Source of the DNA: Okeania sp. SIO2B3 | GTDB taxonomy: Bacteria; Cyanobacteriota; Cyanobacteriia; Cyanobacteriales; Microcoleaceae | Reading direction: 5' to 3' | NCBI RefSeq assembly: GCF_010672525.1 | Contig: NZ_JAAHGH010000048.1 | Span: forward strand, 1-49,861 | DNA length: 49,861 bases | In this document: piece by piece, positions 14,585 through 45,962 of the stretch | Layout of the letters: each line of letters opens with the position of its first letter | Numbering within the stretch: the first letter of the stretch is position 1 | Program-made: the position numbers and the translations under genes | Notes under the pieces: model-generated | The model's input: only the letters and a program-made list of their open reading frames with translations | Database searches by the model: none | Told to the model about the DNA's origin: nothing

Positions 14585-15025
14585 ACAGAAGCATCGCAGA
14601 AAATAGAAAGTACAGAAGAGTAATTGGAAATAGGTTAATACTTGCTACAGATGATTGATGAGAAGATGGAGATGACGAAGATGGGGAGATGGGGAGATGG
14701 GGAGATGGGGAGATTGGTATATTTGCACAATTTTTTGTATTTCATATAACTAATTAAACGGACATGATATAACATTTAGGGTGAGTTTATCAAGTAATAT
14801 CATGTCCGGTAGCATCGGAGCGTGTATAGAATTAAGTCACAATTGGAAAAAACCCTTTCCTAGGTCATGCTACGCAAACAACATAGCTGCCCTCTGCCCT
14901 CTGCCTTCCTTCGACCAAAGTATAAGTATTCAAGCGGACATGATATAAGATACAGCAATAACTCACCCCTGCAGATTCTTCTTTGCAGATGTTTTCTGGC
15001 GATCGAGCAACCAATGCGATGCAGT
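14585..15025. mobile_element. MITE family B: copy 1 (14797-14946) and a solo end
   Basis: Copy 1 begins TATCATGTCCGGTAGCAT after the first A and ends in GCGGACATGATA, with TA at both outer edges, as expected for IS630/Tc1-like insertion at TA. A solo end (ACGGACATGATAT) lies at 14758-14770, just after a GGGGAGAT tandem repeat at about 14680-14712. The other clear copies are at 39496-39615, 39797-39923 and, diverged, 49483-49622. No gene is seen in this spacer. Confidence 0.7.
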
Positions 15026-15550
15026 TTATTTTTTTACACGGCGAATTTCTGAGCAAAAAGAAGCCAAAGTAAAACCTAATGGTCTTTTAACTACACTGGT
15101 GCGTAACCGTAAATTAGGCATCAGATACCAGAAACGTTCCTCTGCATATAAATCTTCCGACTCAGTAACCAATGTTAAAACATCATCACTTCCCATAATA
15201 TATCGACCACTGATATTTGCATTCTCACCATTTCCTTTACTTTGTAATAATCTTCCTTGCTGGGGGTCGTCAGAATTAGGAATAACTATCAACATTGTTG
15301 CACCTACATCTTTCACTTGCTCTCGGTTGATAGTACCATTCCAGTTAATCTGCACCCCTAGTAATTGAGCTACACTTGGGTCAGTTTGATGTTGTTCGCA
15401 CAACTTGATTACTGTGGGGTTTGTCTTTTCTAGTATCTCAACATTTACTTCTGATTTGCCTGCTTGCAACTCCCCGGAAACTAAATTGTGAATTGTGCGT
15501 TGGGAAAACCATTCACCTGCACTCAATTGCAAAAATTCGATAATGTCCAT
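15026..15550 (-). CDS. cpcS: Phycobiliprotein lyase, CpcS/CpeS family
   Basis: A 174-residue protein with the CpcS/CpeS lipocalin-like bilin lyase pattern: MDIIEFLQLSAGEWFSQRT at the start, ISGRYIMGSDDVLTL near residues 113-127, EERFWYLMPNLRLRTSV near 136-152, and the closing SFCSEIRR. These lyases attach phycocyanobilin or phycoerythrobilin to a conserved cysteine of phycobiliprotein subunits during phycobilisome assembly. Length fits the family. The gene stands alone, with no phycobiliprotein operon nearby, as is common for this family. Whether it is the S, U or another paralogue cannot be told from this sequence alone, so the symbol is provisional. Confidence 0.88.
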   Translation of the reverse strand: MDIIEFLQLSAGEWFSQRTIHNLVSGELQAGKSEVNVEILEKTNPTVIKLCEQHQTDPSVAQLLGVQINWNGTINREQVKDVGATMLIVIPNSDDPQQGRLLQSKGNGENANISGRYIMGSDDVLTLVTESEDLYAEERFWYLMPNLRLRTSVVKRPLGFTLASFCSEIRRVKK

Positions 15551-16646
15551 TAACTTGCTAATAGTATTAATTCTGAATCAATACTATTGTTGCACTGATT
15601 GGCACATAAGGCACTTATAGCAGAAGGAAGAAGGAAGAAGGAAGAAGGAAGAAGGAAGAAAGAAGAAGGAAGAAGGAAGAAAGAAGAAGGAAAAATCTTG
15701 TGTTGTCTGAGTTTTACGCTTTTGATCTGTCCGCGTCCTTTCCTTCGACTGCTATATTTAGCCTCTAGTAGCTTTTCTCTATTGAATGATTTATAATACA
15801 AAAATCAAAAATAAAATCAATTATTATCCAGAAATTATCAATTACTTCTAAATGAGGTATTAGGCTATTAGAGTTAGAAAGTAATATTTTAATTATTAAC
15901 GTGAACATTGTACTACTCATAAAATTAAATAATCATGTATAATAGAGTTGATTTATATTTTTTTTTATGTTACTAATTTTCATCTAAAAGTTGATTTTCA
16001 GAAATAAAGATAATAGCGATCGCATATCTTCAGAAGAACCATATAATCGTAAAAAAATTATTTCGCTAGCTAAATTAGCCACAATAGACATAGGGATTAA
16101 AAATAATGTAGAGGTATTCCATAAAATATCCCTACAAAGATTAAATCGAAGGTTAATTGATTGGCTTGCGGTGTCTAATTACAAAAACTTGAATCTAGAG
16201 CAAATATAGCAGATTATACCATTTATGAATAGTAATGCTATGTTTGATTACCATCTCACTACTCCCTATCTCCTCATTAAAAAGATATATAGCAAACTTT
16301 TTGAGATTTGGTATTAGGTAGTATATAAGGTACAAATATTAACGATAAAGTGTGGGTATCTTGCCCACCCACAGATGTAACTCACTGAGATGAAACATCC
16401 TGTAATTTTTATTATCGTAAATATATCTGTTTTTTTGAGGAGGTAAAAAAAATAAAAAATCAAACTATAGCTCGATCCCAGCAACAATAGATGAATTAAA
16501 AAAGAGAATTTAATTGGACTAAAAAACCATAATTGTGACGATAACTATTTTCAAAAATATCAAATTGTGGTAAGTATAGAGGTTAAGCTATGCTATTAAA
16601 ATTATTACATATCACTAAATATGGTATAAGTCAAGGGTACTAAACT
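15551..16646. other. Intergenic region with purine tandem repeat
   Basis: 15621-15692 is a tandem of GAAGGAA/AGAAGGA units (short tandem repeat type). The remainder is AT-rich. 15991-16209 could encode 72 residues from a TTG start and is listed separately with low confidence. At 16351-16372 there is a small GTGGGTATCTTGCCCAC hairpin. The last 200 bp before the NACHT gene must hold its promoter, but no clear elements stand out. Confidence 0.5.
15991..16209 (+). CDS. Possible small ORF or gene remnant, 72 codons
   Basis: Opens with TTG and encodes 72 residues, fairly charged and helical (RKKIISLAKLATIDIGIKNN, then LQRLNRRLIDWLAVSNYKNL). I see no homology I can name and no strong ribosome-binding site. 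It sits alone in AT-rich DNA. It may be chance or the tail of a decayed gene. Confidence 0.2.
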   Translation: MIFRNKDNSDRISSEEPYNRKKIISLAKLATIDIGIKNNVEVFHKISLQRLNRRLIDWLAVSNYKNLNLEQI

Positions 16647-18467
16647 ATGCTCATAGAGATATTAACCCTTTTTGCGGGTGCAGGACTTGAACAAGCAACC
16701 AGTGTCACATGGCATTGGGTAAGTAAGTGGGCAGCAAAAAAAGCTGATGAAAAGAATCAGGTAATACAGACAGCATTAGTAACTTCATATTGTAAGGCTT
16801 TACAGGTAATTCGTAAAGAATCTCAACAACTACCCCAATGGAAGCAAGATAAAGCTGAAATTGAAAGTAGACTAACAGAAATGGAGAAAGATGCACTAAT
16901 GATACTAGATTTAGTGCAAACACACAAGCAAAGAATAACTCATCTACCTCAAGGTAGAGAAGAAGAAGCAATAGTAAAAGTCGTGATGTCTAGACTGCAA
17001 AGCAAAGATAAGTGGCTCAAACACGCTCCAAAAGAATTATTTGTGCTAGTGGAAACTAAATTAGTATCAATTACAGTCCATCAATTTCGCCACGAGCTGA
17101 GAACAGAAAGCACAGTGTTTCAAGCCTTAGTACACGATATGCTAGCAACAGCAGGTGAAGATATCAGTTGTCTTGTTGATGTCACCAACAAAATAGAGAA
17201 AAGAGTAGATAAATTTGTTGGTGACTACCGTCAAGATATAGACAAAATTATTTCTGGTATTGGTGGAGCTAATACTCACTTAGAACAGTTAATATTACTG
17301 TTGCGTAAACAGATGCAACAATGCCAGGTAATACCTGCTGACTTTGCTGCATTAATAGCAGATAAAACGGAAGGCTTTCTCGGACGAGGTTTTGTCTTCG
17401 ATGCCATTGAAGATTTCATCCATAACCAATCTAAAGGATATTTTATCATCGAAGCAGACCCAGGAGTAGGCAAAAGTACAATCATTGCCGAATATGTACG
17501 TCGCACTGGTTGTGTTGCTTATTTCAACTTATTATCAGAAGGTAGAACTAGGGCTGAAGATTTTCTTAAAAGTATCTGTACCCAGTTAATTGAAGGCTAT
17601 AATTTGCCTTATGAACTACCATTACATCCGGATAACACTAGCAATGGTAACTTTCTATCAAAACTACTAAACGAAATTAGTGCCCAACTAACACCAAGAG
17701 AAAAACTCATAATAGCAGTTGATGCTTTAGATGAAGTCGATTTAAGTAGTCAAAGTGGGGCAGCTAATGTGCTTTACTTACCAGCTAACTTACCCAATGG
17801 AGTTTATTTTCTGCTGACTAAGAGGTCTGACCCACTACCATTAGTCATTTCGGCACCGCAGAAAATTTTTGACTTAATGATTTATCCCAATGAAAGTCTA
17901 GAAGATATCAAACTATTTATTCGTCTGCGTACAAAGCGATCGGCAGTGAAGGAATGGATTAAACAAAGAGGCTTAACATTAGAAGAATTTGTCGAATCTA
18001 TAGCCAACAATAGTGAAAATAATTTCATGTACTTAAAATATGTACTTGATGATATTGAGCAAGGCAACTATAGAGATATTAACTTAGAAAGTTTACCTCA
18101 AGGTTTAGAGAAATATTACGATCAACACTGGCATCGAATGAAAATGAATGTCAAACCATTGCCTGTTACTAAGTTAAAAGTCATATATTTCTTAACAAAA
18201 ACTCGTAAACCAGTATCCTGCAGAATGTTAGCCAAATTTAGTGGAGAAATTTCCTTAATAGTTCAAGAAATCCTGGATGAGTGGGCACAATTTCTGCGAA
18301 TTTATCAAACAGAAGGAAAACCAGTTTATAGCATATATCATGCTGCATTTCAAGACTTCCTCTACCGAAAAGATATTGTCCAAGAAGTAGAATCATTAAT
18401 TGAAATCGAAAGTATGGAAAAACAAATCAAAAATAATTTGTTAGGAATGGTTTACAAAAATGCCTAA
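16647..18467 (+). CDS. NACHT-type STAND ATPase without a C-terminal repeat sensor
   Basis: A 606-residue protein. Residues 1-230 are helical, with a coiled-coil-like stretch near 55-100. The FLGRGFVFDAIEDFI box at 244-258 opens a NACHT/AAA-type domain: Walker A DPGVGKST (271-278), Walker B LIIAVDALDEVD (354-365), and FLLTKRSDPL as sensor. The C-terminal part has the winged-helix end usual in this group (YSIYHAAFQDFLYRKDIV). In many cyanobacterial relatives that motif is followed by WD40 or TPR repeats; here only about 30 residues remain. It is either a naturally short STAND protein or has lost its sensor. STAND ATPases act as ligand-gated switches, often in defence. No obvious partner gene is adjacent. 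Confidence 0.88.
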   Translation: MLIEILTLFAGAGLEQATSVTWHWVSKWAAKKADEKNQVIQTALVTSYCKALQVIRKESQQLPQWKQDKAEIESRLTEMEKDALMILDLVQTHKQRITHLPQGREEEAIVKVVMSRLQSKDKWLKHAPKELFVLVETKLVSITVHQFRHELRTESTVFQALVHDMLATAGEDISCLVDVTNKIEKRVDKFVGDYRQDIDKIISGIGGANTHLEQLILLLRKQMQQCQVIPADFAALIADKTEGFLGRGFVFDAIEDFIHNQSKGYFIIEADPGVGKSTIIAEYVRRTGCVAYFNLLSEGRTRAEDFLKSICTQLIEGYNLPYELPLHPDNTSNGNFLSKLLNEISAQLTPREKLIIAVDALDEVDLSSQSGAANVLYLPANLPNGVYFLLTKRSDPLPLVISAPQKIFDLMIYPNESLEDIKLFIRLRTKRSAVKEWIKQRGLTLEEFVESIANNSENNFMYLKYVLDDIEQGNYRDINLESLPQGLEKYYDQHWHRMKMNVKPLPVTKLKVIYFLTKTRKPVSCRMLAKFSGEISLIVQEILDEWAQFLRIYQTEGKPVYSIYHAAFQDFLYRKDIVQEVESLIEIESMEKQIKNNLLGMVYKNA

Positions 18468-28785: not shown

Positions 28786-29638
28786 TTACTGTAAACCACC
28801 GGAAACAAAACCAGCCCAATAATAAGGGTTAATAAAGGGATACTCTTCGTCACATAACAACGCCAGGTTAAATTTCATTTGCCCAACCCGTTTTTTATTC
28901 TCCTCTGTCTCAATATTCTGCAAATGCGCCTCTAGTTGCTGCCGATACATATCATTAAGTTGTTTTCCTGTCAAGTTGCGCCAATCAGTTTGAGCTTTGT
29001 GTAATGCCTGCGGGCGGGTGTATTCGGGGTTTTGCCGATGTTGATAATAAAACAAACAAAATAGTGCTGTCGCGAAATCATCCACTGCCCATTCTGTTAA
29101 AGTAGACAATACCTAGATTATTTTGAGTCGTTGCCCAGTCTGTCGGTAAATCTTTTTTGGTGATAACTTCCAAAGCCAGATGATATGCAGCGATAGAATT
29201 TTCCAGATTCTCTGCCCGGTCGCCTCTAATTCTATTATTGTAGACAATGCCCAGATTGTTTTGAGTTTTTTCCCAGTCTGTCGGTAAATCTTTTTTGGTA
29301 TGAACTTCCAAAGCCAAATGATATGTAGCAATAGCATTTTCCAGATTTTCTGCCCGGTCGCCTCTAATTCTATTATTGTAGACAATGCCCAGATTGTTTT
29401 GAGTTTTTGCCCAATTTTTCCGGTTACTCTCACGGGTAAAGACTTTTAGCACTATTTCATAACCTGCAATTACGATTTCCATGTTATTTGCTTTGTTGCC
29501 GAGTGGAAAGTCCTTAAGGCAGGTGCTGAAATTACCAATAGCGTTGGCGATGAACATACTGACAATGGATTTTGCTGCGTTTGTTTCTACTTCTGAGAAG
29601 TTAGCTGTTGCCTAGGTTTGTAGGATGTGAACAAATTT
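28786..29638 (-). pseudogene. Decayed TPR-CHAT protease gene
   Basis: Reading downstream from 29638: KFVHILQT, then TAG (29612-29614) where the relative at 7683-8864 has Trp, then ATANFSEVETNAAKS and about three 50-residue TPR units (TQNNLGIVYNNRIRGDRAEN). At about 29095 the frame shifts and jumps to the C-terminal end of a CHAT domain (WAVDDFATALFCLFYY, ending PFINPYYWAGF). The CHAT core with its catalytic His and Cys is deleted. The 5' end is cut by the 194-bp tandem repeat. It is a clear pseudogene of a TPR-CHAT protein. Confidence 0.85.
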
Positions 29639-30127: not shown

Positions 30128-31615
30128 TTAACTAGGTTCTGGAATTGTGATATCTATTGAAGTAATTTTAAGATCGTTTCCGAGACTACTCAGAGGTGGT
30201 TGAATTGCTTCTTTGTTGCCCACAACTAAAGTTACAATTTTATCTGGTTGCAAATATTTTTGAGCTACTCTTTGCACATCCTCAACAGTAATATTTTCTA
30301 TTTCCTGACGATAACGGAAAATGAAATCTTGGGGATAATCATAATATTCATATCTCATCAAACGGGATAAAGTTTGAGCTGGATCTTGAAAGTTGAAAAT
30401 AAATGAATTGAGAGTTGAATCTTTGGCATGGGTGAGTTCCTCTTTTGTAATAGGTTGAGTACGAATACGTTCAATTTCTTCATTCACAGATGTGATAAAT
30501 GGCACAGTCGCATCCGAACGAGTTTCACCTCCAGCGATGAATACTCCTGGATAATCATAGTTAGGACTCCAATAAGCAGAAACTGAATAAGCTAAACCTT
30601 GACGCGATCGAATATTATTAAACAAGCGTCCCCCCAAACCATTAAGTACCGCATTCATCACGCTCAAAGCTGTATAATCAGGATTATCTAATTTTCCGCC
30701 TAAGTGACCCATTTGTACATAACTTTGAGTTAGCTGAGGTTGGTCAATAAAAAACAGATCACCGACTTGAGCTTGACTAACATTTGGTAGAGGAGGTTTT
30801 ACTGCTTTAATGCTTGGTTGCCAGTTGCCAAATTGCTCTTTGATGAGCGATCGCATCTGTTTGGTCTGAAAATCTCCTACTACTCCCAAAATCATATTCT
30901 CAGGATGGAAATATTTAGCATAGAAATCAATTAAATCTTCCTGGGAAATGTTGTTGAGGGTTTCATATTCAACAGTTCGAGCATAAGGACTTTCTGTCCC
31001 ATAAATCAATTTTTGGAACTCACGACCAACAATAGATTCAGGATCGTCATTCCGACGAGCAATTGCACCTTGCCATTGTTGTTTGGCAAACTCTAGTTTT
31101 GCTGGAGCAAATACGGGTTCGCGAATTACTTCGGTAAATAATCCAAATACTTCTGTCAAGTCTTCAGTCAGGCAACTGAACCTGGCAATACCAGCAGTAC
31201 CACCGATGCCTGTTTCTACTACTGCTGCTTTTTGTTCGAGTATTTGATTGATTTTTTCAGGGGAATGTTGAGTTGTTCCACCTGTACGCATGACAGTCCC
31301 AGTTAAGTCTGCTAACCCTGCTTTATCTTCGGGTTCAAATCTTGAACCTGTTCGGAATATTGCTCTGCCACCTATTAGGGGTAATTCATGGTCTTCCATA
31401 AGATAGACAACGATGCCATTGTCAAGTTGAAAGCGAGTGTACTCTGGTAGTTCTAATTCTGGTAGTGGGGGAAATTCCAGTTCGGTATAATGTTTGGCTG
31501 GAGTTAGAGCTATGGCTGGTATTTGCCCTAAAATAGCTAACAGCATTACTACGGCTAAAAATGCTGTGATGAAAATTTTGGATCTAGTAATTTTTCTTTT
31601 GTATTTAGAAAGCAT
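30128..31615 (-). CDS. M16-family peptidase, inactive-subunit type
   Basis: A 495-residue M16 (pitrilysin/PqqL-like) protein. The start is set at 31615 (MLSKYKRKITRSKIFITAFL), giving a signal peptide or membrane anchor. The open frame extends upstream through a heptamer repeat, but that part would only encode YSLFPIP repeats and is not credible. The M16 fold is clear (YTRFQLDNGIVVYLMEDHEL, GVVGDF, QGLAYSVSAYW), but the zinc motif HxxEH is replaced by a segment reading ADLTGTV, so the subunit should be non-catalytic. It follows the active M16 gene on the same strand, as in known active/inactive pairs, and probably forms a heterodimer in the periplasm or at the membrane. Confidence 0.9.
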   Translation of the reverse strand: MLSKYKRKITRSKIFITAFLAVVMLLAILGQIPAIALTPAKHYTELEFPPLPELELPEYTRFQLDNGIVVYLMEDHELPLIGGRAIFRTGSRFEPEDKAGLADLTGTVMRTGGTTQHSPEKINQILEQKAAVVETGIGGTAGIARFSCLTEDLTEVFGLFTEVIREPVFAPAKLEFAKQQWQGAIARRNDDPESIVGREFQKLIYGTESPYARTVEYETLNNISQEDLIDFYAKYFHPENMILGVVGDFQTKQMRSLIKEQFGNWQPSIKAVKPPLPNVSQAQVGDLFFIDQPQLTQSYVQMGHLGGKLDNPDYTALSVMNAVLNGLGGRLFNNIRSRQGLAYSVSAYWSPNYDYPGVFIAGGETRSDATVPFITSVNEEIERIRTQPITKEELTHAKDSTLNSFIFNFQDPAQTLSRLMRYEYYDYPQDFIFRYRQEIENITVEDVQRVAQKYLQPDKIVTLVVGNKEAIQPPLSSLGNDLKITSIDITIPEPS

Positions 31616-31634
31616 TGTTTGTTTTGGTATGAAA

Positions 31635-31718
31635 GGGAATAGGGAATAGGGAATAGGGAATAGGGAATAGGGAATAGGGAATAGGGAATAGGGAATAGGG
31701 AATAGGGAATAGGGAATA
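31635..31718. repeat. Heptanucleotide tandem repeat, 12 copies of GGGAATA
   Basis: Twelve exact, contiguous copies of GGGAATA. It lies in the leader of the downstream M16 gene. Heptamer tandem repeats (STRR type) are known from filamentous cyanobacteria. Directly after it (31719-31770) is a half copy of MITE family C, with a GGGCGAATGCCATTCGCCC palindrome and TGCGTAAGTCCTG. Confidence 0.95.
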
Positions 31719-31804
31719 GGGGGCGAATGCCATTCGCCCCTACATATGGCGGTTATGCGTAAGTCCTGTATTTGTAGAGAGACTGCATACAATTTCTCTA
31801 CTCT

Positions 31805-33406
31805 TTACTGGGGAAGCAGTCTGCCAATAGTACGGTTTTCGGCAACGAAAGTTTTTTGAGCTACACGCAGAATATCTTCTGTAGTTACTGCATTAATGGC
31901 ATCTAATTCTTTAAACAGATTTTGCCACGAACCAGTTTTAACTTCGTAGCTCAAGAGAGCAGAAGCCATTCCTGTATTAGAGTCAAGAGAGCGCAATAAA
32001 CCTGCCCGTGCTTGAGTTTTCACCCTTTCTAACTCTTGCTGAGAAACTGGCTCTGTTTTCAATTTTTCAATTTCTGTCTGCAAAGCTGCTCCAACTTCAT
32101 CTACATTACTATTGGGAGCAGTCATAGCATAAAATAGCATCAGATGTGGATATTTATCTCCTGGATAACCACCTGCTCCTCTTGCTACGAGAGCTATTCG
32201 CTGTTTCTCAACTAATGACTGATAGAGGCGAGAAGTACGACCATCGCTCAAGATGCTAGTCATCATTTGATAAATTGCATTGTCGGGATGATTGGTTGCA
32301 GGTCGGTGATAACCTTCTATATACCAAGGTTGAGATTGCAACTTCATCGTTACTTCCCCTAATTCAGTTTGGGGAGGTTCGACAATATTAATTTGTGGTG
32401 GTTTTTCTTTAGTTTCGTAGCGACCGAAATAAATTTTTGCTAATTTTTTCACCTCTTTGGGTTCGACATCTCCAACTATTGCTACTGTTAAGTTACTGGG
32501 AACATAATGAGTATCAAAAAAGTCGCGCACATTTTCTCTGGTTAAATTTTCGATATCTTCTTGATAACCAATAACAGGGCGACGGTAAGGATGAACTTGG
32601 AAAGCTTTACTTAAAAATTTTTCCAACAATTGGGCAACGGGTGAATTTTCTGTGCGCGATCGCCTTTCTTCTAGAATTACCTGTTTTTCTTTATAAAATT
32701 CTCTAAATACTGGTTCCAAAAATCTTTCTGACTCTAAGGACATCCATAATTCTAGTTTATTGGCAGGTAAACTGTAGAAGTATTGGGTGTAGTCTGCTGA
32801 GGTACCAGCATTCATTCCTACTCCTCCTGCTTGTTGGACTATTTTGGAGAATTCATTTTGATTTACATATTGAGATGCTTGCTTTTGAGCTGCTTCAAAT
32901 TCTGCTAAAAGTTGGGTGAGTTGTTCGGTTTTTTGATTAGCACTAGCTGTTTGAATTTCTGCAAATATCTTATCTAGTTTTTCTAGAGCTTGTTTTTCGG
33001 CTTGATAATCTTTTGTACCGATTTTTTTTGTACCTTTAAAAGCTAAATGTTCTAGGTAATGGGCCACACCTGTTTGACCGTCTGGTTCGTTTGCCCCACC
33101 AACATCAGCATAAATAGAAAAAGATATAACTGGGGCATTATGTCTTTCCAATACGATGAATTTCATGCCATTGTCGAGGCGAAATTCTGTGACTTTTTTG
33201 ATTACTCGGTCTAGGTAAGGCTTAATTGATATTTTTTGGTCCGGAGTAGATTCCCGTGCTAAGGCCATATTTGCGGGAAGCCCAAACCAAAACAAACTTA
33301 TGGTAATTAAGCAAAGACATAATTTGAGCGATCGCTTTTTTAGTTGGGCCAATTCAAAGCTGGCAGTAATTATTTTTTTACACCAAGTTGGTAAGAAAGT
33401 TTGCAT
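31805..33406 (-). CDS. M16-family zinc peptidase, active subunit
   Basis: A 533-residue M16 metallopeptidase. A hydrophobic segment (LCLCLITISLFWFGLPANMALA) at about 29-50 is a signal peptide or anchor. The inverted zinc motif HYLEH is at 116-120 (GVAHYLEHLAFKGT), and the downstream Glu ligand probably lies in ELWMSLESERFLEP. A Gln/Lys-rich helical insert (about 130-185) separates the motif from the rest of the domain. The C-terminal M16 domain is also present (LARGAGGYPGDKYPHL). It is followed after 189 bp by an inactive M16 gene on the same strand; together they look like a two-subunit envelope protease. Substrates are unknown. Confidence 0.93.
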   Translation of the reverse strand: MQTFLPTWCKKIITASFELAQLKKRSLKLCLCLITISLFWFGLPANMALARESTPDQKISIKPYLDRVIKKVTEFRLDNGMKFIVLERHNAPVISFSIYADVGGANEPDGQTGVAHYLEHLAFKGTKKIGTKDYQAEKQALEKLDKIFAEIQTASANQKTEQLTQLLAEFEAAQKQASQYVNQNEFSKIVQQAGGVGMNAGTSADYTQYFYSLPANKLELWMSLESERFLEPVFREFYKEKQVILEERRSRTENSPVAQLLEKFLSKAFQVHPYRRPVIGYQEDIENLTRENVRDFFDTHYVPSNLTVAIVGDVEPKEVKKLAKIYFGRYETKEKPPQINIVEPPQTELGEVTMKLQSQPWYIEGYHRPATNHPDNAIYQMMTSILSDGRTSRLYQSLVEKQRIALVARGAGGYPGDKYPHLMLFYAMTAPNSNVDEVGAALQTEIEKLKTEPVSQQELERVKTQARAGLLRSLDSNTGMASALLSYEVKTGSWQNLFKELDAINAVTTEDILRVAQKTFVAENRTIGRLLPQ

Positions 33407-36660: not shown

Positions 36661-38022
36661 ATGGTTCTCACCAATAACTACTGGACATTATGCAAAATTG
36701 ATTTAGCTAGTTATGATGTGTCTGGTTCTCACAGAGGATATCGAGAGGAGGTACTATTGTCTGTTCAGCAACAATTTCAAATCTGGTTTCCGTCTATTGC
36801 TGAACTCAAAGAACTCTCCTCCCAAGATGACCGAAAAATTCAAGCTACTTTGCTATCTCACTTTCTATCTCAAAATTCGGCCTCTTCTAAGGAATGCAGC
36901 ATAACAGCAGGACTTTCTTTGCGCTGCTATATTTCTCATGGCATTGTTGATGCTTGTCAAAAATTGGCTCAACAATTTGGCGATCGCTATGGTTTTTCTC
37001 ACTTAGACTTGTTGTACCTGGTACTCACTGATGATGGTAAAATCAAGAGTTTTCAGGAAGTTAGGGAAAACTCTCAGTCTTCTTACCCCTATTTTTGGGC
37101 GCACATTTTAAGAAAGTTCAATCCTGATAAAGCTGGACTCTGGAATTGGACTAATTTACTCACCCGTCGCCACCCAGAACTAACTCGAACGTTATGGGTG
37201 GAATTTGGTTTATCTTTAACTACTCCTTGGGGAAAACTAAATGATATTAAGCGTTACCAAATGGAAGCTCTTTCACCTCAAGAACAAGATGTGGTAGAGG
37301 TGTTTCATGGAGTATATCGGCGCGACAGACGAGAACAGGGTGCAAGGGGCAAATGTCCTGAACCTTCTGAGTCTCAACTTCAGGAAATGCGCGATCGCCT
37401 TTTTCCCAGGGGAGTTGTATATAATTCTTCAGATGAACTACTTGAGCAATTGAAAACTATTGCTCAGTTTATACAGGAACAAATATTAAATCCAACTGAG
37501 ATTTCACCACCCTCTAATGCTTCAGCAATGGAACTTGAATTTCTAGACGAACATCGCGATCAAGCTATTATGGATGCTATTGAGGGGGTGCTTTCTCAAC
37601 GTTTGCAGAAACTACAAAAAAGTGCTTGGTATAGTGAATTTGCTCCTCATTTTTTGCCTAGTTTACGACTAATTTATTGTGAAAATAAATCTCAAAGTGA
37701 AGTAGCTAAACAATTAAATATGAATAATCAATGTCAAGTTAGTCGCATCTTAAAACTTAAGCAAATGCTGAAGCAAATTAGAGAAGAGGTAATGGAGAAA
37801 ATGCTGCAAATTTTGTTGAATCAAGCAGAGTTAAATTCAAGTCAAGGGGTTTTAGATCCAAATGTTTTTGATTCTTTAATTGAACTATTAAGCCGTTATT
37901 TAGATGAAACCGTTTTTATAGAGGCAGCCAAGGAAATTTCTACAGCAAGGAAATACCAAAGAATGACAAGTTTATTCGCTGAAAAAATGCGCTATTATCT
38001 TAAATATAGTCAGTCTATTTAA
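36661..38022 (+). CDS. Sigma-like HTH protein, cyanobacterial type
   Basis: A 453-residue protein preceded by GGAGGATG. Residues 80-200 (LSLRCYISHGIVDACQKLAQ, FSHLDLLYLVLTDDG, LWNWTNLLTRRHPELTRTLW) are typical of a cyanobacterial family often annotated as sigma-factor-like. Residues 331-372 (FLPSLRLIYCENKSQSEVAK, QLNMNNQCQVSRILKLKQ) form a helix-turn-helix like sigma region 4. It lacks a recognisable region 2, so it may not be a true sigma factor. From memory, this family is often next to DUF1822 genes, as here (91 bp downstream), and near CHAT or caspase genes. I infer that it regulates this locus. Confidence 0.85.
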   Translation: MVLTNNYWTLCKIDLASYDVSGSHRGYREEVLLSVQQQFQIWFPSIAELKELSSQDDRKIQATLLSHFLSQNSASSKECSITAGLSLRCYISHGIVDACQKLAQQFGDRYGFSHLDLLYLVLTDDGKIKSFQEVRENSQSSYPYFWAHILRKFNPDKAGLWNWTNLLTRRHPELTRTLWVEFGLSLTTPWGKLNDIKRYQMEALSPQEQDVVEVFHGVYRRDRREQGARGKCPEPSESQLQEMRDRLFPRGVVYNSSDELLEQLKTIAQFIQEQILNPTEISPPSNASAMELEFLDEHRDQAIMDAIEGVLSQRLQKLQKSAWYSEFAPHFLPSLRLIYCENKSQSEVAKQLNMNNQCQVSRILKLKQMLKQIREEVMEKMLQILLNQAELNSSQGVLDPNVFDSLIELLSRYLDETVFIEAAKEISTARKYQRMTSLFAEKMRYYLKYSQSI

Positions 38023-38113: not shown

Positions 38114-39370
38114 ATGAATATTCATTCTGATTCTAAGCAAATAAACAGACTGTATTACCGACAATTGCACTTAGAAACTATTGATTTAGAACCTGAAGAT
38201 TTTCAGGAAGCAACTCTTTTGAGCGATCGCTTTAATAACGAAGCCCAACAATGGCAAGCTTATGTGAACATATTGGGTTTATTAGCACTAAAAAAATGGT
38301 TGAGCGATCGCCATTTAACATTAGATAATCCAATTGAATCTTTGCCACCTCATCAAATTATCAGTTCGGAACCAATTTGCCCTCTGCAAGTCAATGGATT
38401 TACAGTTTGCTTACTGACAAATGAAAATATAGTAAATGAAGGAATTGAAATTCCGGAGAAAATGATTTATTCTCCAGATTTTGCTGCCCATTTTTATGTA
38501 TTAATACAGGTATTAGTAGAGGAAGAAGAAGCTATTTTAATTGGATTTATACGGCACGATCAATTCAAAAATCGGTCTTTACAAAAAAATGAAATAGGAA
38601 ATTATCAACTTTCTTTGACTCAACTAAATTATGACTCCAGCCACTTAATTTTGAATTTGAAATATTTGAGTCCGGCAGCTATTAAACTTCCAAAAAATAC
38701 CTTAGCTGAATCAAAAACTTGGGAAAAATTAACAAGTTGGTTAGAAGGTATTTTAACAGAAGCTTGGCAACCAGTAGAAGAACTTCTAGGAAATCGTAAA
38801 CCGACTATACAAATGGCTTTCAGTTTAGATCAAACAACAAAAAAATTATCTCCCAAAGTAGTTCAAAATTTTCTTCAACAATTCCAAATCACTCAAAGAC
38901 CAAGAGAAAAAATACAGGCAGATTTATCTCAATTTGAACTATCAGACACAGAAGTAAATAAAGCTCTCGTACAGATTTTACAAACAACAGAAGACGAAGA
39001 AACACGCTGGCAAATTGCCGAATTGTTGTGGGAAATTGACCCTAGTCATCCAGCAGCAGGTGTACGTCGCGCCATCGATCTAGGAATGCAACTAGCAGGA
39101 GTTCCGGTGGCACTAATGATAGCCATTTTACCCAAACCAAACCAAAGATTTGCTGTTCTTTCGAGAGTTTATCCTCTTCAAGACCAACGTTTTCTACCAG
39201 CAAATTTAAAACTCATTGGTTTAGATGAAATGGGGCAATCTTTATTTGAAATTCGTGCAAGAGAACGAGATGATTATATTCAGTTCAAATTTACCGCCGA
39301 TCCAGGCGATCGCTTTAGTCTTCAAGTTAACCTTAATTCTGCGACTGTGACAAAGCACTTTATGATTTGA
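38114..39370 (+). CDS. DUF1822 family protein
   Basis: A 418-residue protein with DUF1822 features: QWQAYVNILGLLALKKWLSD, VNGFTVCLLTNENI, FYVLIQVLVEEEEAILIGFI then RHDQFKN, a middle helical part with TWEKLTSWLEGILTEAWQPV, and a C-terminal sheet part (GVPVALMIAILPK, VLSRVYPL). It is a soluble cyanobacterial family of unknown function. GGAGAATAA precedes the ATG. It forms a likely operon with the sigma-like gene 91 bp upstream and lies before two CHAT receptor genes on the same strand. It may be an adaptor or regulator of CHAT; that is inference. Confidence 0.88.
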   Translation: MNIHSDSKQINRLYYRQLHLETIDLEPEDFQEATLLSDRFNNEAQQWQAYVNILGLLALKKWLSDRHLTLDNPIESLPPHQIISSEPICPLQVNGFTVCLLTNENIVNEGIEIPEKMIYSPDFAAHFYVLIQVLVEEEEAILIGFIRHDQFKNRSLQKNEIGNYQLSLTQLNYDSSHLILNLKYLSPAAIKLPKNTLAESKTWEKLTSWLEGILTEAWQPVEELLGNRKPTIQMAFSLDQTTKKLSPKVVQNFLQQFQITQRPREKIQADLSQFELSDTEVNKALVQILQTTEDEETRWQIAELLWEIDPSHPAAGVRRAIDLGMQLAGVPVALMIAILPKPNQRFAVLSRVYPLQDQRFLPANLKLIGLDEMGQSLFEIRARERDDYIQFKFTADPGDRFSLQVNLNSATVTKHFMI

Positions 39371-39495
39371 ATAAAAAAGTGATGGTAAGCATTCAGCTAT
39401 TAGCATTCAGCTATCAACTTTTGAACGTAATAAATTACTAAGGCGATCGGAAAACCTTTTTCTTTCAGTGCGGAATGCGGAAGCAAACATATTTC

Positions 39496-39615
39496 ATATC
39501 ATGTCCGGCTGAATACTTACACTTTGGAGGAGGTAAGGCAGGAGGCAGGAGGCAGAAGGGTTTCCCGCAATTTTCACCTAATTCTATACACAAACGATGC
39601 TACCAGACATGATAT
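39496..39615. mobile_element. MITE family B, copy 2
   Basis: Starts ATATCATGTCCGGCTGAATA and ends TGCTACCAGACATGATAT. It is inverted relative to copies 1 and 3. The edges read TA on both sides. The inside contains a GCAGGAGGCAG tandem. Confidence 0.75.
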
Positions 39616-39796
39616 CACTCCTTGGAGACTAATTCCTCCTTCGGTGCGATAATGAGCTAATAACTCATAGCTGATAGCTGATAGCTGACCGCTGAATGCT
39701 TACTTGTGATATTTTGTGGAATGGGCATCTTGCCCATTTTTTATCAAAATAATACGGGTCTAAAACCCCACCTTATTAAGGCGAAATATTTTTGTC

Positions 39797-39923
39797 ATAT
39801 CATGTCCGGTAGCATAGTTTGTGTATAAAATTCAGGTGACAATAGGAAAAAACCTTCTGCCTCCTGCCTCCTACTTTCTGCTTTCGTTCCACCAAAATCT
39901 AATTATTCAACCGGACATGATAT
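39797..39923. mobile_element. MITE family B, copy 3, inside a family E repeat
   Basis: Starts ATATCATGTCCGGTAGCATA and ends CAACCGGACATGATAT. The flanking DNA (GGCGAAATATTTTTG before, and AAATTCCCG...TTCTGACTTCGTTAAA after) matches the inverted family E repeat at 26771-26921, so this copy landed inside one. Confidence 0.75.
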
Positions 39924-40172
39924 CAAATTCCCGTTACAAAAATAACTTCTGACTTCGTTAAATTTTCGGATGTGCAGGATACCCACCCCACTTATATTCA
40001 TTCCTTAATTCAGCAACACCATCTTAAAAGTTTTACAATTATGATATTTTTGTGGAACTAAGATTAGGTGTTGGGTTTCCTGTCCTCAACCCAACCTACA
40101 AAGAGCCAATTTTTGGTTATTAACTATTGAAAACAAATATAATATTAAAACTAAAACAATGAATTAAGAATA

Positions 40173-42911
40173 ATGGTTAAACAAGTTGTTATCACAATAG
40201 AAGAAGGCAGTTTTGAATCAGGTTTTCCTGTTTCCCTAGAGTTTTGGGAAAATGATAGAGTCATTGCCAGAAACCGCAAATGTCATCCATTGCCCCGTAA
40301 CCCAGATTTTCCTAGAATTTATGATGAATGGAGAAGCATTTATACTAGGTTGGGATTGGGAGAACGGGTGATAGAGATAAACGAAGGCCAAGTTACCAAC
40401 GTCGCCAGTTTAGAAGAGTGTGAAAATGCTACTCGAAACCTAGAATCTAACGAAAGAAATTGGTTGGGAGCAGCTGCATTTGGAGATATTCGAGGGCGCA
40501 TTGTTGGAAAGTTTCAGAATCTTACTCCTAGTGAATCGGTACGAGTTATCATTGATACATCAAATCCTTATCTGCATAGGTTATCATGGGATTATTGGGA
40601 CTTATTTGAGAAACCATATTTACCCCAGGCAGAATTTACCCTCTTATCTCAGCATAATCCACCAATAACAACGTGGCAAAAACCTATTCGTATTCTGGCA
40701 ATTTTTGGGAGCGATCGAGGGGGTTTACAACTGGAGCAAGACCGGAAACTGATTGAAAATTTAGAAAGAGATGGGGCAAAAATTACCTCTATTCCAGCCA
40801 GAGGAGATTCTCTGACTTATCAAGAACTATATAAAACTATTCGACGAGGAAATTGGGATACTATTTTTTATGCCGGGCACAGTTCTGATCGGACTGTGAA
40901 TGTTAATCCTACCTTAAATGTACCAATTGATGCTTTAAGAGGAGCTTTCAGGAAAGCAGCCCCAACAGTAAAGCTGGCAATTTTTAATTCCTGTGATGGA
41001 CTGGATATTGGTGAATATTTAGCTGATTTTGATATTCCCAATATGATTGTGATGCGAGAACCTGTTCCCGATCTAGTAGCACGGAGTTTTTTACAATTTT
41101 TCCTGAAAGAATTTACCCAAGGGCAACCTCTTCACGCTGCTGTTAGAGAAGCACGGGAATGTTTGGAAGAACTGGAATTTTCTAATTCAGATGGAGTGTA
41201 TCATCCAAGAGCATCTAAACTGCCTGTACTAATTCAAAACCCTACTGCACCTGAACTCTATTGGCCTGAACCTGAAGCGGAACCTCTAGCGCAACCTGAA
41301 GCTGAACCTCCACCGCAACCTGAAGCGGAACTTCTACGGCAGTTGCGAAGAAGACGCAGGCGGATAATGCAGATAATAGTTCTGTTTTCTTGTATGCTTA
41401 TCGGTTTGATGGTTTTTTTGGTAATTGGTAAAACAATCAATCCTAAACCACCTAGTACACCTGAACCAACCATTACACTTGAACCAAGTAAAGACAACAT
41501 CGGTAAAAAAGATAACATCAGTGAAGGTGAGGAAATTCTGGTAAAACTATCTCAACAAACATACAAAAAAAATGGTGTAGAAAAATTCAAGAACAAAAGT
41601 TATTTGGTAGCAGCTCAAGATTTTCAGAAAAGCTGGAATGACGAACGAAGAGATCCAGAAACTTTAATATATCTCAATAATGCAATTTTAGAAGCGACGG
41701 GTGTTGGGTACGATACTATTGCAGTTGCGGTTCCAGTTTTGGCTCGTAATGCAGACATTGCTCAAGAGATGTTGCGGGGAGTAGCTCAAGCGCAAACAGA
41801 AGTTAACTTGAGTTTATCGGAAGAATTATCTAATTTCACCTTACCAGGTAAAGGTTTTCTAACGCCAAAGAGGTTGAATGGAAAAGGTTTAAAAGTAATT
41901 ATTGCTAATGATGCTAACAATAAAGAGCAAGCCAAGAAAGTTGCTAATACAATAGCGAAACGATCAGAGATTCTTGGGGTTGTTGGTCATTGGACCAGTG
42001 AGACAACGACGGCAACTGTAGATATCTATAACCAACATGAATTAGTAATGGTTTCCCCTGGTGCAAGTACTTCTATACTCACAGAAAAACCTCGAAAATT
42101 TTTCTTCCGAACTAACATCACCAACAGACGGCAATCAGAAAAAATGGTTGATGTCTTGATGGATAAGTTTAATCAAAACAGAGTAGCAGTTTTTTATAAT
42201 CCTGATAGTGAGTACTCCGGTGATTACAAAAAACGATTTGAAGAAGAATTTGTAAAAAAAGGAGGAAAACAAAAAAACATCATTGATGACCCTGATATTT
42301 CTCATATTAATCAGCTTGATTTTAATGCTGAAAATGCTATCAAAAGACTTAGTAACTATGGAGAATTAGTAATTGCTTTAATTCCTGATGGTCAAGTGAC
42401 TGATGCTCTCGGTAATGCTCTGGAAATTATTAAAGAAAATCGCGGTCAAAACTTGATGGTAGGTAATTGGTCGGTTTATAGCCCTAAAACCCTGAATATT
42501 GCTCAACTTCAACTCGTAGAAAAACTGATTGTAATTGTTCCTTGGCATTCTTTAAGCAATCCAGATTCTTATTTTTCTCAAACCACCAAGAAGCTTTGGG
42601 AAGGGTCTGTCAGTGGTCGCACAGCTTTGAGTTATGATGCTGCTCAGGTGCTAATCAAAGGGATTGAGGAAAATGGGGAAAAACATCGTCGGGAAATTAA
42701 GAAGACGTTGGCAGACAAAAATTTCCGTGTTGAGGGGGTAACAGGAGAAATTACATTTGAAGAGGGGAAAGGCGATCGCAAAATACAACCCCTGGAGTTA
42801 GTTAAGATTGTTTCTTGTCCAACGGTTCAGGATAAGGAACGCGTCATATTTATTCCTGAGAAGTATTCAAAATCTGAAGATGCAGGGTTGGACTGTGGGA
42901 ATTATAACTAA
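40173..42911 (+). CDS. CHAT protease - TM - periplasmic-binding receptor fusion, copy 1
   Basis: A 912-residue protein. Residues 1-150 are an N-terminal region with a DTSNPYLHRLSWDYWDL segment. The CHAT (caspase-like) domain spans about 170-360, with catalytic His236 in IFYAGHSS and Cys274 in AIFNSCDGL, both intact. An acidic Pro/Glu linker (EPEAEPLAQPEAEPPPQPEA) and RQLRRRRRR precede one membrane helix at 400-420. The basic run implies that the N-terminus is cytoplasmic. Outside, residues 450-505 are TPR-like (AAQDFQKSWNDERRDPETLI). Residues 514-880 form a type I periplasmic-binding domain (TIAVAVPVL, LRGVAQAQTEVN, LKVIIANDAN, LGVVGHWTSE, MVSPGAS), close to branched-chain amino-acid-binding receptors. 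Cys882 and Cys908 are shared with copy 2 and may form a disulfide. Predicted role: ligand-sensing transmembrane protease. Confidence 0.9.
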   Translation: MVKQVVITIEEGSFESGFPVSLEFWENDRVIARNRKCHPLPRNPDFPRIYDEWRSIYTRLGLGERVIEINEGQVTNVASLEECENATRNLESNERNWLGAAAFGDIRGRIVGKFQNLTPSESVRVIIDTSNPYLHRLSWDYWDLFEKPYLPQAEFTLLSQHNPPITTWQKPIRILAIFGSDRGGLQLEQDRKLIENLERDGAKITSIPARGDSLTYQELYKTIRRGNWDTIFYAGHSSDRTVNVNPTLNVPIDALRGAFRKAAPTVKLAIFNSCDGLDIGEYLADFDIPNMIVMREPVPDLVARSFLQFFLKEFTQGQPLHAAVREARECLEELEFSNSDGVYHPRASKLPVLIQNPTAPELYWPEPEAEPLAQPEAEPPPQPEAELLRQLRRRRRRIMQIIVLFSCMLIGLMVFLVIGKTINPKPPSTPEPTITLEPSKDNIGKKDNISEGEEILVKLSQQTYKKNGVEKFKNKSYLVAAQDFQKSWNDERRDPETLIYLNNAILEATGVGYDTIAVAVPVLARNADIAQEMLRGVAQAQTEVNLSLSEELSNFTLPGKGFLTPKRLNGKGLKVIIANDANNKEQAKKVANTIAKRSEILGVVGHWTSETTTATVDIYNQHELVMVSPGASTSILTEKPRKFFFRTNITNRRQSEKMVDVLMDKFNQNRVAVFYNPDSEYSGDYKKRFEEEFVKKGGKQKNIIDDPDISHINQLDFNAENAIKRLSNYGELVIALIPDGQVTDALGNALEIIKENRGQNLMVGNWSVYSPKTLNIAQLQLVEKLIVIVPWHSLSNPDSYFSQTTKKLWEGSVSGRTALSYDAAQVLIKGIEENGEKHRREIKKTLADKNFRVEGVTGEITFEEGKGDRKIQPLELVKIVSCPTVQDKERVIFIPEKYSKSEDAGLDCGNYN

Positions 42912-43262
42912 TGTTTTTTTTGATAAGTGCATTATATTTAATCAGGTAGCATCAGTATTATTTACAGGACTCCGGGTACCGACAGTACCAAAGAAATACT
43001 GAAATTATCAATACTTTTCTCCAATATTTTCTATGTATTCCTCCTTTCTTCCCCTCCCAGGAGGGGAGGGGTTAGAGGTGGGTTCTCTACTCCCCTACTC
43101 CCCTACTCCCCCGCTCCCCTACTATCTTAATAATAAGTATTCAACCGGACATGATATAAGCTGGCGCTAACGTGTCCTCAACCCAACCTACAAAGAGCAA
43201 ATTTTTGGAGATATCTATTTAACCGAATATAATATTAAAACTAAAGCAATGAATTAATCATA
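42912..43262. other. Intergenic: MITE remnant and duplicated CHAT leader
   Basis: 43036-43125 holds CTCCCAGGAGGGGA and CCCCTACTCC tandems. 43137-43156 is a solo family B end (CAACCGGACATGATATAA). 43168-43262 repeats the leader of the first CHAT gene: GTCCTCAACCCAACCTACAA, then TATAATATTAAAACTAAA and AATGAATTAA just before the ATG. Confidence 0.7.
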
Positions 43263-45962
43263 ATGGCTAGACAAGTTGTTATCAAAATAGAAGAAGGGAG
43301 TTTTGAATTAGGTTTTCCTGTTATCCTGGAGTTTTGGCAAGATGGTAGAATCATTGCCACAGAACGCAAGTGTCCTCAATTGCCCCCTAACCCAGATTTT
43401 CCTATAGTTTATGATGAATGGAGAAACATTTATACTGAGTTGGGGGGAGACCGAGCGATAGAAATGCAAGAGGGGCAAACTACCAACATCTCCAGTTTAG
43501 AAGGCTGTCAAAATGCCACTCGCGCCCTAGAATCTAATGTAAGAAATTGGTTAGGACAACCTATCTTTGGAGCTATAACAGCGCGAATTATAGGACAACT
43601 CAAAGATGGAACTCCAAATGAATCAGTTCGAGTGATCATCGATACATCAAATCCTTATCTGCGTAAGTTATCCTGGGATTATTGGGATTTATTTGAGAAA
43701 TCATATTTTTTACCCCAAGCAGAATTTGCCCTTTTATCTAAATATAATCGACCAACAGAAACCTTGGAGAAACCGATTCATCTTCTGGCAATTTTTGGTA
43801 GCAATGAGGGGGAATTACAACTGCAACAAGATCGGGAACTCATTGAAAACTTACAACAACACGGGGCAAAAATTACCTCTATTCCAGCGAGAGGAAATTC
43901 TCTGACTCCTCAAGAACTATTTGATACTCTTTGGCTGGGAAATTGGGATATTATTTTTTATGCAGGACATAGTTCCGCTCGGAATATTCATGTCGATCGT
44001 GGTCAAGATTTACCAATCAATCTTTTAAAAGAAGCTCTGAGGAAAGCCGCTTCAAAAGTCAAGCTGGCAATTTTTAATTCCTGTGATGGACTGGGTCTTG
44101 CTGAATATTTAGCTGATTTTGATATTCCCCATATAATTGTGATGCGAGAACCTGTTCCCGATTTAGTAGCACGGCGTTTTTTACAATATTTCCTGGAAGA
44201 ATTTACCCAAGGTAGACCTCTCCACGCCTCTGTTCGAGAAGCACGGAGGCATTTAAAACAACTGGAAATTCCTATTCCCAATGAATTGTTTTATCCAAGA
44301 GCATCTAGACTACCTGTACTCATCCAAAATCCTGCTACACCTGAACTATATTGGCCTCAACCTAAAAAACATCCAGGCAAATCTCCAATAAAACCTAAGT
44401 ACATAATTCTGTTTTTCTTGGCGATCGCTGGTGTTTTGGGAATTTGTCGTTGGTTTTATCCTCAACCTGAAATGCTTGGAGATAACATTAGTAAAGGTGA
44501 GGAAATTCTGGTCAAACTATTTCAACCACGAGACAAACAAAGGGGTGTGGATGCAGTTGCCCAATGCCAAAAACCCTGGAATTATTTTCTACCTATTTGG
44601 AACGGTCATATTCGAGAACAATGGAGGGGTTGTTTGATCACCAAAAATATTTATCAAGAGGCAGTTCAAAATCTTCAGCAAAGTTGGAAGACAGATCGAA
44701 GAGACCCAGAAACTTTAATTTATCTCAATAATGCTCTTTTAGAAGCGACAGAAGCTAATTTCTATACTATTGCAGTTGTAGTTCCAGTTTTACAGGATGA
44801 AACAGGACAGGTGAGTAATGCAGAAGTCGCTGAAGAACTCTTGCGGGGAGTAGCTCAAGCGCAAATGGAAGTTAACTTGAGTTTATTCAATGAGAATAAA
44901 TACTCTAATTTGACTTTACCGGGTGCAAATTTTCTAGACTCGAAAAGCTTGAATGGAAAAGGTTTAAAAATTATCATTGCTAATGATGCTAACTTAGAGA
45001 CTCAGGCAAATAAGGTTGCCAATACAATAGTCAAACGGTCAGAGATTCGAGGTGTTATTGCTTCTTGGACCAGTGAGATGACGATGGCAACTGTAGATAT
45101 ATATAACCAAAATCAATTCGTATCAGTTTCTCCTGGTGCGGCCACTTCTGAACTCACACAAAAACTTAGACCATTTTTCTTCCGAATTACCGCAACTAAC
45201 AATCTCCGAGCAGAAGCAATGGTTGATGTCTTGATGAATAAAATTAATCAAAACAAAGCTACGATTTTTTATAACCCTGCTAGTGCCTATTCTAGTGATT
45301 ATAAAAAACATTTTAAACGAAAACTCTCGGAAAAAGGAGGATATGTCATTGATTCATTTGATATTTCTCGGTCTGATTTTAATGCTAAAAATGCTATCCA
45401 AAAAGTCAGAAAATATGGTAATTCAGCTATTGTTCTCATCCCAGATGGGCAAGTGACTGATTCTTTTGCTAATGCTCTGGAAATCATCAAAGAAAATGGT
45501 GGTCAAAACTGGATAGTTGGTGATTCCTCAATTTACAGTCCGAAAACCCTGAAGATAGCTCAACCCCAACTCATGGAAAAACTTATTGTCACTATTAATT
45601 GGCATCCTCTAAGTAATCCAAAATCTGATTTTTCTCAGACCACTGAGCAGCTTTGGGGAGGTCCTGTTAGCGGTCGTACAGCTTTGAGCTATGACGCAGC
45701 TCGGGTTCTCCTTGAAGGAATTCGGCAACAACCTACTCGTTGGGGAATTCAGAAAACGTTAGCAGATAAAACTTTCCATGTTGAGGGGGTAACAGGAAAA
45801 ATTGAATTTAAACCAGGAACTGGCGATCGCCAAAAACTACCCTTGGAATTAGTTCGAGTTGTTTCTTGTCCAACGAAGACGAATAGCGATCGCTTCGTAT
45901 TTATTCCTTATAAGTATTCAAAACCTGAAGATGCAGGGTTGAAATGCTTGAGTTCTAAGTAA
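43263..45962 (+). CDS. CHAT protease - TM - periplasmic-binding receptor fusion, copy 2
   Basis: An 899-residue paralogue with the same architecture: CHAT with His236 (IFYAGHSS) and Cys274 (AIFNSCDGL), one membrane helix at about 379-397 (KYIILFFLAIAGVLGICRWF), and a type I periplasmic-binding domain from about 501 to 870. The N-terminal and CHAT parts are the most alike in the pair. The linker before the membrane helix is shorter and lacks the Pro/Glu repeat. The segment after the helix contains an insertion (AVAQCQKPWNYFLPIWNGH to GCLITKNI) not in copy 1. The binding domain has diverged at many surface positions, so ligand specificity may differ. Conserved Cys869 and Cys895 correspond to the pair in copy 1. 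It arose by tandem duplication including the leader. Confidence 0.9.
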   Translation: MARQVVIKIEEGSFELGFPVILEFWQDGRIIATERKCPQLPPNPDFPIVYDEWRNIYTELGGDRAIEMQEGQTTNISSLEGCQNATRALESNVRNWLGQPIFGAITARIIGQLKDGTPNESVRVIIDTSNPYLRKLSWDYWDLFEKSYFLPQAEFALLSKYNRPTETLEKPIHLLAIFGSNEGELQLQQDRELIENLQQHGAKITSIPARGNSLTPQELFDTLWLGNWDIIFYAGHSSARNIHVDRGQDLPINLLKEALRKAASKVKLAIFNSCDGLGLAEYLADFDIPHIIVMREPVPDLVARRFLQYFLEEFTQGRPLHASVREARRHLKQLEIPIPNELFYPRASRLPVLIQNPATPELYWPQPKKHPGKSPIKPKYIILFFLAIAGVLGICRWFYPQPEMLGDNISKGEEILVKLFQPRDKQRGVDAVAQCQKPWNYFLPIWNGHIREQWRGCLITKNIYQEAVQNLQQSWKTDRRDPETLIYLNNALLEATEANFYTIAVVVPVLQDETGQVSNAEVAEELLRGVAQAQMEVNLSLFNENKYSNLTLPGANFLDSKSLNGKGLKIIIANDANLETQANKVANTIVKRSEIRGVIASWTSEMTMATVDIYNQNQFVSVSPGAATSELTQKLRPFFFRITATNNLRAEAMVDVLMNKINQNKATIFYNPASAYSSDYKKHFKRKLSEKGGYVIDSFDISRSDFNAKNAIQKVRKYGNSAIVLIPDGQVTDSFANALEIIKENGGQNWIVGDSSIYSPKTLKIAQPQLMEKLIVTINWHPLSNPKSDFSQTTEQLWGGPVSGRTALSYDAARVLLEGIRQQPTRWGIQKTLADKTFHVEGVTGKIEFKPGTGDRQKLPLELVRVVSCPTKTNSDRFVFIPYKYSKPEDAGLKCLSSK

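Follow-up and report, generated by a model that had tools for sequence, protein, structure and literature searches.

EACC2 systems, which were predicted computationally in 2021 (Kaur et al., PMC8195603), are among the closest described relatives of two adjacent genes from the cyanobacterium Okeania sp. SIO2B3, found in a window of 49,861 nucleotides (contig NZ_JAAHGH010000048.1 of assembly GCF_010672525.1; the window is the whole stretch of DNA analysed here). Each gene encodes a CHAT protease joined through one transmembrane helix (TM) to a type I periplasmic-binding protein (PBP) domain. As in these two proteins, EACC2 systems combine an alpha+beta domain, a caspase domain and a variable C-terminus that can be extracellular. 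They lie beside an ECF sigma factor and a DUF1822 gene in most cases independent of TRADD-N, and a DUF1822 gene also stands upstream of the two genes; unlike what we found, however, the accessible part of the EACC2 account names CHASE2 and 'several small-molecule-binding domains' at the C-terminus, and no type I PBP. For EACC1 systems, instances of a caspase-superfamily domain followed by a membrane helix and a downstream extracellular PBP were noted in 2020 (Kaur et al., PMC7159879), but, according to the part of that paper available to us, these systems include a separate EACC1 membrane protein and belong mainly to actinobacteria. ANF-receptor or Peripla_BP_6 domains have also been reported on membrane orthocaspases, together with a model of ligand-triggered autocatalysis (PMC7475262, PMC8283722); the receptor-protease layout is the same, whereas their protease is a Peptidase_C14 p20 domain in the place where the window copies have an EACC2-CHAT domain.

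Two further CHAT proteases have to be considered. HetF, like the proteins described here, is a cyanobacterial membrane CHAT protein, and the transcription-regulator inhibitor that it can cleave is PatU3, which limits HetZ (PMC8406250, PMC12288457); it differs in consisting of CHAT, one TM and TPR with no PBP, and DUF1822 is not mentioned for it in the accessible parts of these papers. In the Craspase locus (Csx29-Csx30-CASP-sigma) the CHAT protease Csx29 cleaves Csx30, the inhibitor of a sigma factor (PMC10028731), so that a CHAT protease, a sigma inhibitor and an ECF-type sigma factor stand in one locus, a likeness to the arrangement proposed here; its trigger is instead RNA, acting via Cas7-11, and kinship between Csx30 and DUF1822 was not found in our comparisons.

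An earlier note on this DNA had implied that the architecture is new and had called CHAT proteases usually soluble. The literature on EACC2, EACC1 and orthocaspases, as far as it is accessible, leads us to reject an undescribed architecture (PMC8195603, PMC7159879, PMC7475262, PMC8283722), and HetF is an example of a CHAT protein in the membrane (PMC8406250). The further statement that no experimental description was known is not contradicted, as no bench test of the CHAT-TM-PBP architecture was found among open-licence papers. The two genes look like new members of a receptor-protease class that had already been predicted; what is added here is the repeated change of effector by the sensor, the presence of DUF1822 directly upstream of 53 of 87 EACC2-CHAT hits, and a sigma-like gene before DUF1822 in 13 of 20 hand-picked loci. 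The observation made in the earlier note is confirmed and its interpretation is partly supported.

Protease, membrane helix and sensor of the two copies

Copy 1 (40173..42911, + strand) is an open reading frame (ORF) of 912 amino acids, and copy 2 (43263..45962, + strand), of 899 amino acids, has the same layout. With approximate limits, copy 1 is composed of an EACC2-like region (residues 1-165), CHAT (about 166-366, with His236 and Cys274), a linker, the TM (401-419), a TPR-like region (448-515, so called from a weak TPR match at the same place in a Planktothrix relative) and the type I PBP (about 516-912); in copy 2 the TM is at 380-398 and the pocket motifs are of another type. The N-terminal alpha+beta region, the CHAT domain with its conserved dyad, the single membrane helix and the type I PBP sensor are all well supported. 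We read the two genes as tandem receptor-proteases of EACC2 type, a name given by layout and context.

Copy 1 matches the CHAT model PF12770 weakly (23.1 bits for the whole protein against a cut-off of 24; 25.9 bits for residues 1-368) and copy 2 clearly (36.7 bits), and 27 of the 28 aligned EACC2-CHAT members match it at E <= 0.01. Concerning PF00656 (Peptidase_C14, orthocaspase), neither copy gave a match at E <= 0.1, and two of the 28 members matched weakly (best E 0.0039). At the same threshold copies 1 and 2 had no match to the HetF equivalog NF045509, against which the third CHAT-TM-PBP copy of the genome (P0005) scored 29.8 bits with a cut-off of 1200, or to the PADLOC anti-phage defence models; no EACC2 model appeared among the Pfam results for the copies.

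Sequence searches of the PDB with CHAT, as a single protein and as a profile of 28, gave nothing significant (best E 1.1 and 0.84), and CHAT structures were recovered by fold comparison only. Residues 1-375 of copy 1 were modelled with AlphaFold2 at moderate confidence (pLDDT 65.2, pTM 0.56) from an input of eight close sequences, and the model places alpha+beta elements at 3-128, followed by a CHAT-like fold. Foldseek returned 1163 PDB matches, 15 of them at E <= 0.001: SAVED-CHAT chains come first (2.6e-9), and separases, chain 8eey_B (3.5e-7), the RgpB gingipain and two ciliary central-pair chains are also included, while legumain and caspases match at weaker E; the TM-scores are low (0.37-0.44 by query length). 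Chain 8eey_B belongs to the Cas7-11/Csx29/Csx30 complex and is presumably Csx29 itself. In both copies His236 lies in a GHS motif and Cys274 in an NSCDG motif, the intact pair that had been reported before. Of 45 unique EACC2-CHAT ORFs, one has gaps at both dyad positions; the 44 that are readable all keep the dyad, which is also invariant in the 28 aligned members. The window copies and near relatives are included in both counts, and no loss of the dyad was seen in relatives. Motifs and fold model together point to a clan CD CHAT fold with a His/Cys dyad in both copies, for which proteolysis is predicted.

Each protein has one hydropathy peak of membrane-helix length, at the TM positions given above, and a stretch rich in lysine and arginine (K/R) precedes it, in agreement with the earlier description of a single helix after a basic stretch. 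Orientation was judged from hydropathy and from the charge bias, that is, K/R in the 15 residues before the helix versus the 15 after it. K/R is higher before the helix in 13 of 16 CHAT receptors, in 9 of 10 kinase receptors and in the nSTAND protein. Kinase and NTPase domains need cytoplasmic ATP, and a sensor shared with such partners should therefore face outward. Hydropathy, charge bias and the occurrence of the sensor on kinases make it most likely that the PBP is outside and CHAT inside; the two domains had been placed on opposite sides of the membrane before, and no same-side topology emerged from hydropathy and charge bias.

The C-terminal domain is clear in both copies, with Peripla_BP_6 at E 1.1e-21 in copy 1 and 1.6e-25 in copy 2, as expected for the type I periplasmic-binding domain first assigned to it; both the Peripla_BP_6 and the ANF_receptor models are above cut-off in the copies. 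In the PDB the sensors are related mainly to proteins that bind branched-chain amino acids (LIVBP type), and the sensor of the third copy also matches mGluR1/5 (E 4e-4 and weaker). When the sensors were aligned with these PDB relatives, the residue equivalent to LIVBP Ser79 was kept in 39 of 40 sensor rows and the Thr102 position was T or S in 33 of 40, two positions that we take to be ligand contacts in LIVBP. Both window copies depart from the GGD motif that most stand-alone sensors carry; copy 2 has an Asp one column from that position, where the alignment is unsure. Pocket motifs are distinct between the copies, GHWTSETT / SPGAST / VGNW in copy 1 and ASWTSEMT / SPGAAT / VGDS in copy 2, in line with the expectation that their sensors differ; the copy 2 type is found in other species almost letter for letter and the copy 1 type in similar form. 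From these likenesses an amino acid is a possible ligand. The copies probably respond to different ligands and share one output.

According to the earlier description, linker and sensor of the two copies had diverged further than their proteases. This holds for the linker (34.1% identity over 41 aligned residues, with 40 gap positions), but for the sensor it does not stand as stated, since PBP identity (64.8%) is close to that of CHAT (67.7%); the EACC2-like region has 69.5% identity and the region before the PBP 57.4%. Between the copies dN is 0.243 in the sensor half versus 0.180 in the protease, with a dN/dS of 0.50 in both halves. Between copy 2 and O. hirsuta the sensor has a dN/dS of 0.53 and the protease one of 0.32, and with Okeania SIO1I7 the corresponding values are 0.32 and 0.35; every region compared falls between 0.32 and 0.53, below 1. 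The evidence is mixed, and any excess divergence of the whole sensor over the protease appears at best slight.

A sensor module shared among effectors

In the window's own genome three CHAT proteins, one protein kinase and one nSTAND-TPR protein carry the sensor, which also occurs alone. Relatives add fusions to further kinases and to a metallophosphoesterase, and a PBP of the same sensor family forms the C-terminus of a Nostoc plasmid protein that also has Peptidase_C14 and nSTAND1. A tree was built from 36 of the 40 sensor rows, the 4 truncated ones being omitted. On this tree the CHAT label has to change 6 times, and starred branches force at least 4 of these changes; the hypothesis that the CHAT sensors form one clade is rejected (p-AU 5.7e-4). 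The two sensors of the window fall in a supported set (97/100) containing 8 CHAT, 7 kinase and 1 phosphoesterase sensors. The tree thus indicates that the sensor is a module which moved between effectors several times. The opposite arrangement is seen at the N-terminus: within the same genome, related N-terminal modules carry PBP, PBP_like_2, CHASE2 and nSTAND1-WD40 C-termini, and a constant N-terminal module with a variable C-terminus is a feature of EACC2. Of the EACC2 features, the alpha+beta region before CHAT, the variable C-terminus, the DUF1822 neighbour and, in some of the systems, a TRADD-N partner were found in this genome.

With the third copy as query against 194 genomes of the phylum, matches at E <= 1e-40 were obtained in 63, many of the matches listed covering one half of the protein only. 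Single matches spanning both protease and sensor occur in at least 8 family codes (f1, f2, f6, f7, f9, f20, f21, f25), all of them within the window's order among the matches listed.

Some loci with these modules deserve a description of their own. The third copy lies in a receptor island of the Okeania genome (L058, C195:240000-259500), where positions 3110-18128 carry on one strand an HTH/sigma-like gene, DUF1822, the third CHAT-TM-PBP, a stand-alone PBP, a CHAT-TM-PBP_like_2 and an SBP-VWA protein. The metallophosphoesterase (L079:1495-4437, - strand) is joined to the same PBP sensor via a membrane helix. The Nostoc protein (L160:1120-10290, plasmid pNLP1) has 3057 amino acids, with Peptidase_C14, a hydrolase-like domain, nSTAND1 and the C-terminal PBP; the plasmid is typed as conjugative.

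DUF1822 and sigma-like genes beside the receptors

Upstream of copy 1, on the same strand, the window holds a sigma-like gene (36661..38022, +, 453 amino acids) in which only a region-4-like helix-turn-helix is detectable, the NCBIfam models SigBFG (E 9.1e-5) and sigma70-ECF (E 0.0047) both being far under their curated cut-offs, and a DUF1822 gene (38114..39370, +, 418 amino acids; PF08852, E 9.1e-79), whose product is a candidate substrate or sigma inhibitor. Neither the sigma-like protein nor DUF1822 had a significant match in the PDB by sequence. The order sigma-like gene, DUF1822, copy is the same in five Okeania loci (L051, L052, L053, L054 and L057).

Neighbourhoods were counted in 15 genomes hand-picked from 59 relatives, using the 87 EACC2-CHAT hits at E <= 1e-15 (103 matches were found, 15 weaker ones were left out and 88 entered; at least two of the 87 counted rows are pieces of one frame). 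DUF1822 is directly upstream (same strand, within 1.5 kb) of 53 of them, while random placement would give 0.10, and conversely 54 of 95 DUF1822 hits in the 15 genomes have an EACC2-CHAT hit directly downstream. Twenty loci were then taken by hand, and not at random, from the 53 adjacent pairs: one sigma-like family stands directly before DUF1822 in 13, a different gene (403-554 amino acids) in 6, and none was seen in the remaining one. The ECF superfamily model is matched by 6 of 16 aligned members of this sigma-like family at E <= 0.1 (best 1.3e-5), and the best PDB match of the family is SigK (E 0.045). On plasmid p1 of Planktothrix pseudagardhii the trio is compact, with gaps of 53 and 26 bp, and is annotated as a sigma-70 factor, a DUF1822 protein and an 'ABC transporter substrate-binding protein', the last being CHAT + Peripla_BP_6 by Pfam; the annotated sigma-70 factor had no Pfam match at E <= 0.01. 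These counts show an association of EACC2-CHAT genes with DUF1822, which a sigma-like gene joins in many relatives. Concerning TRADD-N, a TRADD-like_N domain (E 2.4e-7) is fused to DUF1822 beside an EACC2-nSTAND1-WD40 gene of the same genome (L064:10009-11076), and no match was obtained among the window neighbours. DUF1822 is also found fused to a dynamin-type GTPase near an EACC2-nSTAND1-WD40 gene (L066:10553-13345).

Other features of the window are the leaders 5' of copy 1 (40081..40167, +) and of copy 2 (43173..43257, +), which local alignment shows to be common to the two genes, and a motif around ATATCATGTCCGG or its reverse complement, noticed by eye 5' of both copies (about 39490-39930 and 43140-43160). 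A CHAT fragment (28801-29557, - strand; 107-amino-acid ORF) overlaps a short TPR ORF and is perhaps the remnant of a TPR-CHAT gene. An NB-ARC ATPase of 1176 amino acids with many TPRs is encoded at 3326-6853 (- strand), and two adjoining, ordinary M16 peptidase genes are located at 30131-33406 (- strand).

A proposed mechanism and its alternatives

We propose that a small ligand bound outside would rearrange or pair the receptors, that this would activate the CHAT protease inside, and that the protease would then cleave either itself or a partner encoded nearby. The most economical candidate for cleavage would be DUF1822 acting as a sigma inhibitor, so that its cleavage would free the sigma-like protein and change transcription. 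The transcriptional reading is based on the neighbouring genes and on two published cuts of transcription-factor inhibitors by CHAT proteases, Csx29/Csx30 and HetF/PatU3 (PMC10028731, PMC12288457, as far as accessible). We give the whole explanation, from EACC2-type receptors to the release of the sigma factor, a probability of roughly 0.5. A modular small-molecule sensor of cyanobacteria might control transcription by proteolysis as a ligand-gated membrane counterpart of the CRISPR Csx29-Csx30-sigma system, present in several copies per genome and with interchangeable sensors; this wider view is tentative and, in our estimate, rather doubtful.

Ligand gating, protease activation and the substrate are inferred steps of the proposed mechanism, and several observations weigh against it. 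The charge bias fails in three of the 16 CHAT receptors (two ties and one reversed), in one of the 10 kinase receptors and in the phosphoesterase, which is a tie, and stand-alone sensors show it in 1 of 8, mostly having only about 7 residues before the helix. DUF1822 is not directly upstream of 34 of the 87 hits, and no sigma-like gene was recognised in 7 of the 20 loci. The window's own sigma-like gene has a weak region-4 match only; its profile found no relative among 70 ORFs of the 20 loci, and profile comparison gave no relationship between its family and the shorter sigma-like family (probability 0.3%). The window's DUF1822 gene is separated from copy 1 by 802 bp, which makes their co-transcription unsure. 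Finally, in the fold search with DUF1822 no match reached E <= 0.001 and Csx30 was absent from the 50 matches listed, a search that tests little because the model is poor (pLDDT 51.7); as neither the sequence nor the fold searches gave anything significant, the comparison with Csx30 stays an analogy.

It might be hypothesized, alternatively, that the receptor-protease directly triggers cell death or a protease cascade and that the sigma-like gene and DUF1822 serve another step. Such a model has been published for orthocaspases with ANF, CHASE2 or WD40 domains (PMC7475262), MaOC1, a caspase homologue, reportedly cleaves an antitoxin (PMC7935541), a PBP is also found on the Peptidase_C14 protein with nSTAND1, and the Planktothrix plasmid has a gene for a VapC-type toxin about 1.6 kb past its CHAT-PBP gene; the recurring order of sigma-like gene, DUF1822 and EACC2-CHAT points, however, to a transcriptional output, and we consider direct killing unlikely. 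A variable C-terminus could also be an effector released by autoproteolysis instead of a sensor, which is how Kaur et al. read the variable domains of EACC1 (PMC7159879), although for EACC2 the same authors assign the C-terminal domains a part in sensing (PMC8195603, both in their accessible parts). The location of the PBP beyond the membrane helix, its presence on kinases and an NTPase or anchored alone, and the Ser79-type residue, which suits binding, leave little room for a released effector.

The EACC2-CHAT part may instead be a transmembrane anti-sigma factor, holding the sigma-like protein until the sensor is triggered, with proteolysis secondary. Rank 23 of the Foldseek matches (model of 40173-41297) is indeed the transmembrane anti-sigma factor DdvA (8rot, E 4.1e-3, probability 0.98; no paper on this structure was found in our literature search), and sigma-like genes are neighbours; but SAVED-CHAT, separase and 8eey_B all match more strongly, and none of the 44 readable ORFs has lost the catalytic dyad; we consider this reading improbable. 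Similarly, the altered GGD motif of copies 1 and 2 would suit a PBP that has lost ligand binding and serves as scaffold or docking domain, whereas the recurrence of similar pocket motifs for each copy type in other species and the sensor dN/dS of 0.32 to 0.53 argue against such a loss, to which we attach only a slight chance.

If the proposed mechanism, in which the ligand-activated protease cuts DUF1822 and frees the sigma-like protein, is true, it would reveal both the signal and the action of a large family of cyanobacterial caspase-like proteins, DUF1822 would gain a function, and a caspase-fold protease would be seen to work as a receptor in signalling rather than in killing. Because the three-gene set recurs, the mechanism can be tested directly in E. 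coli.

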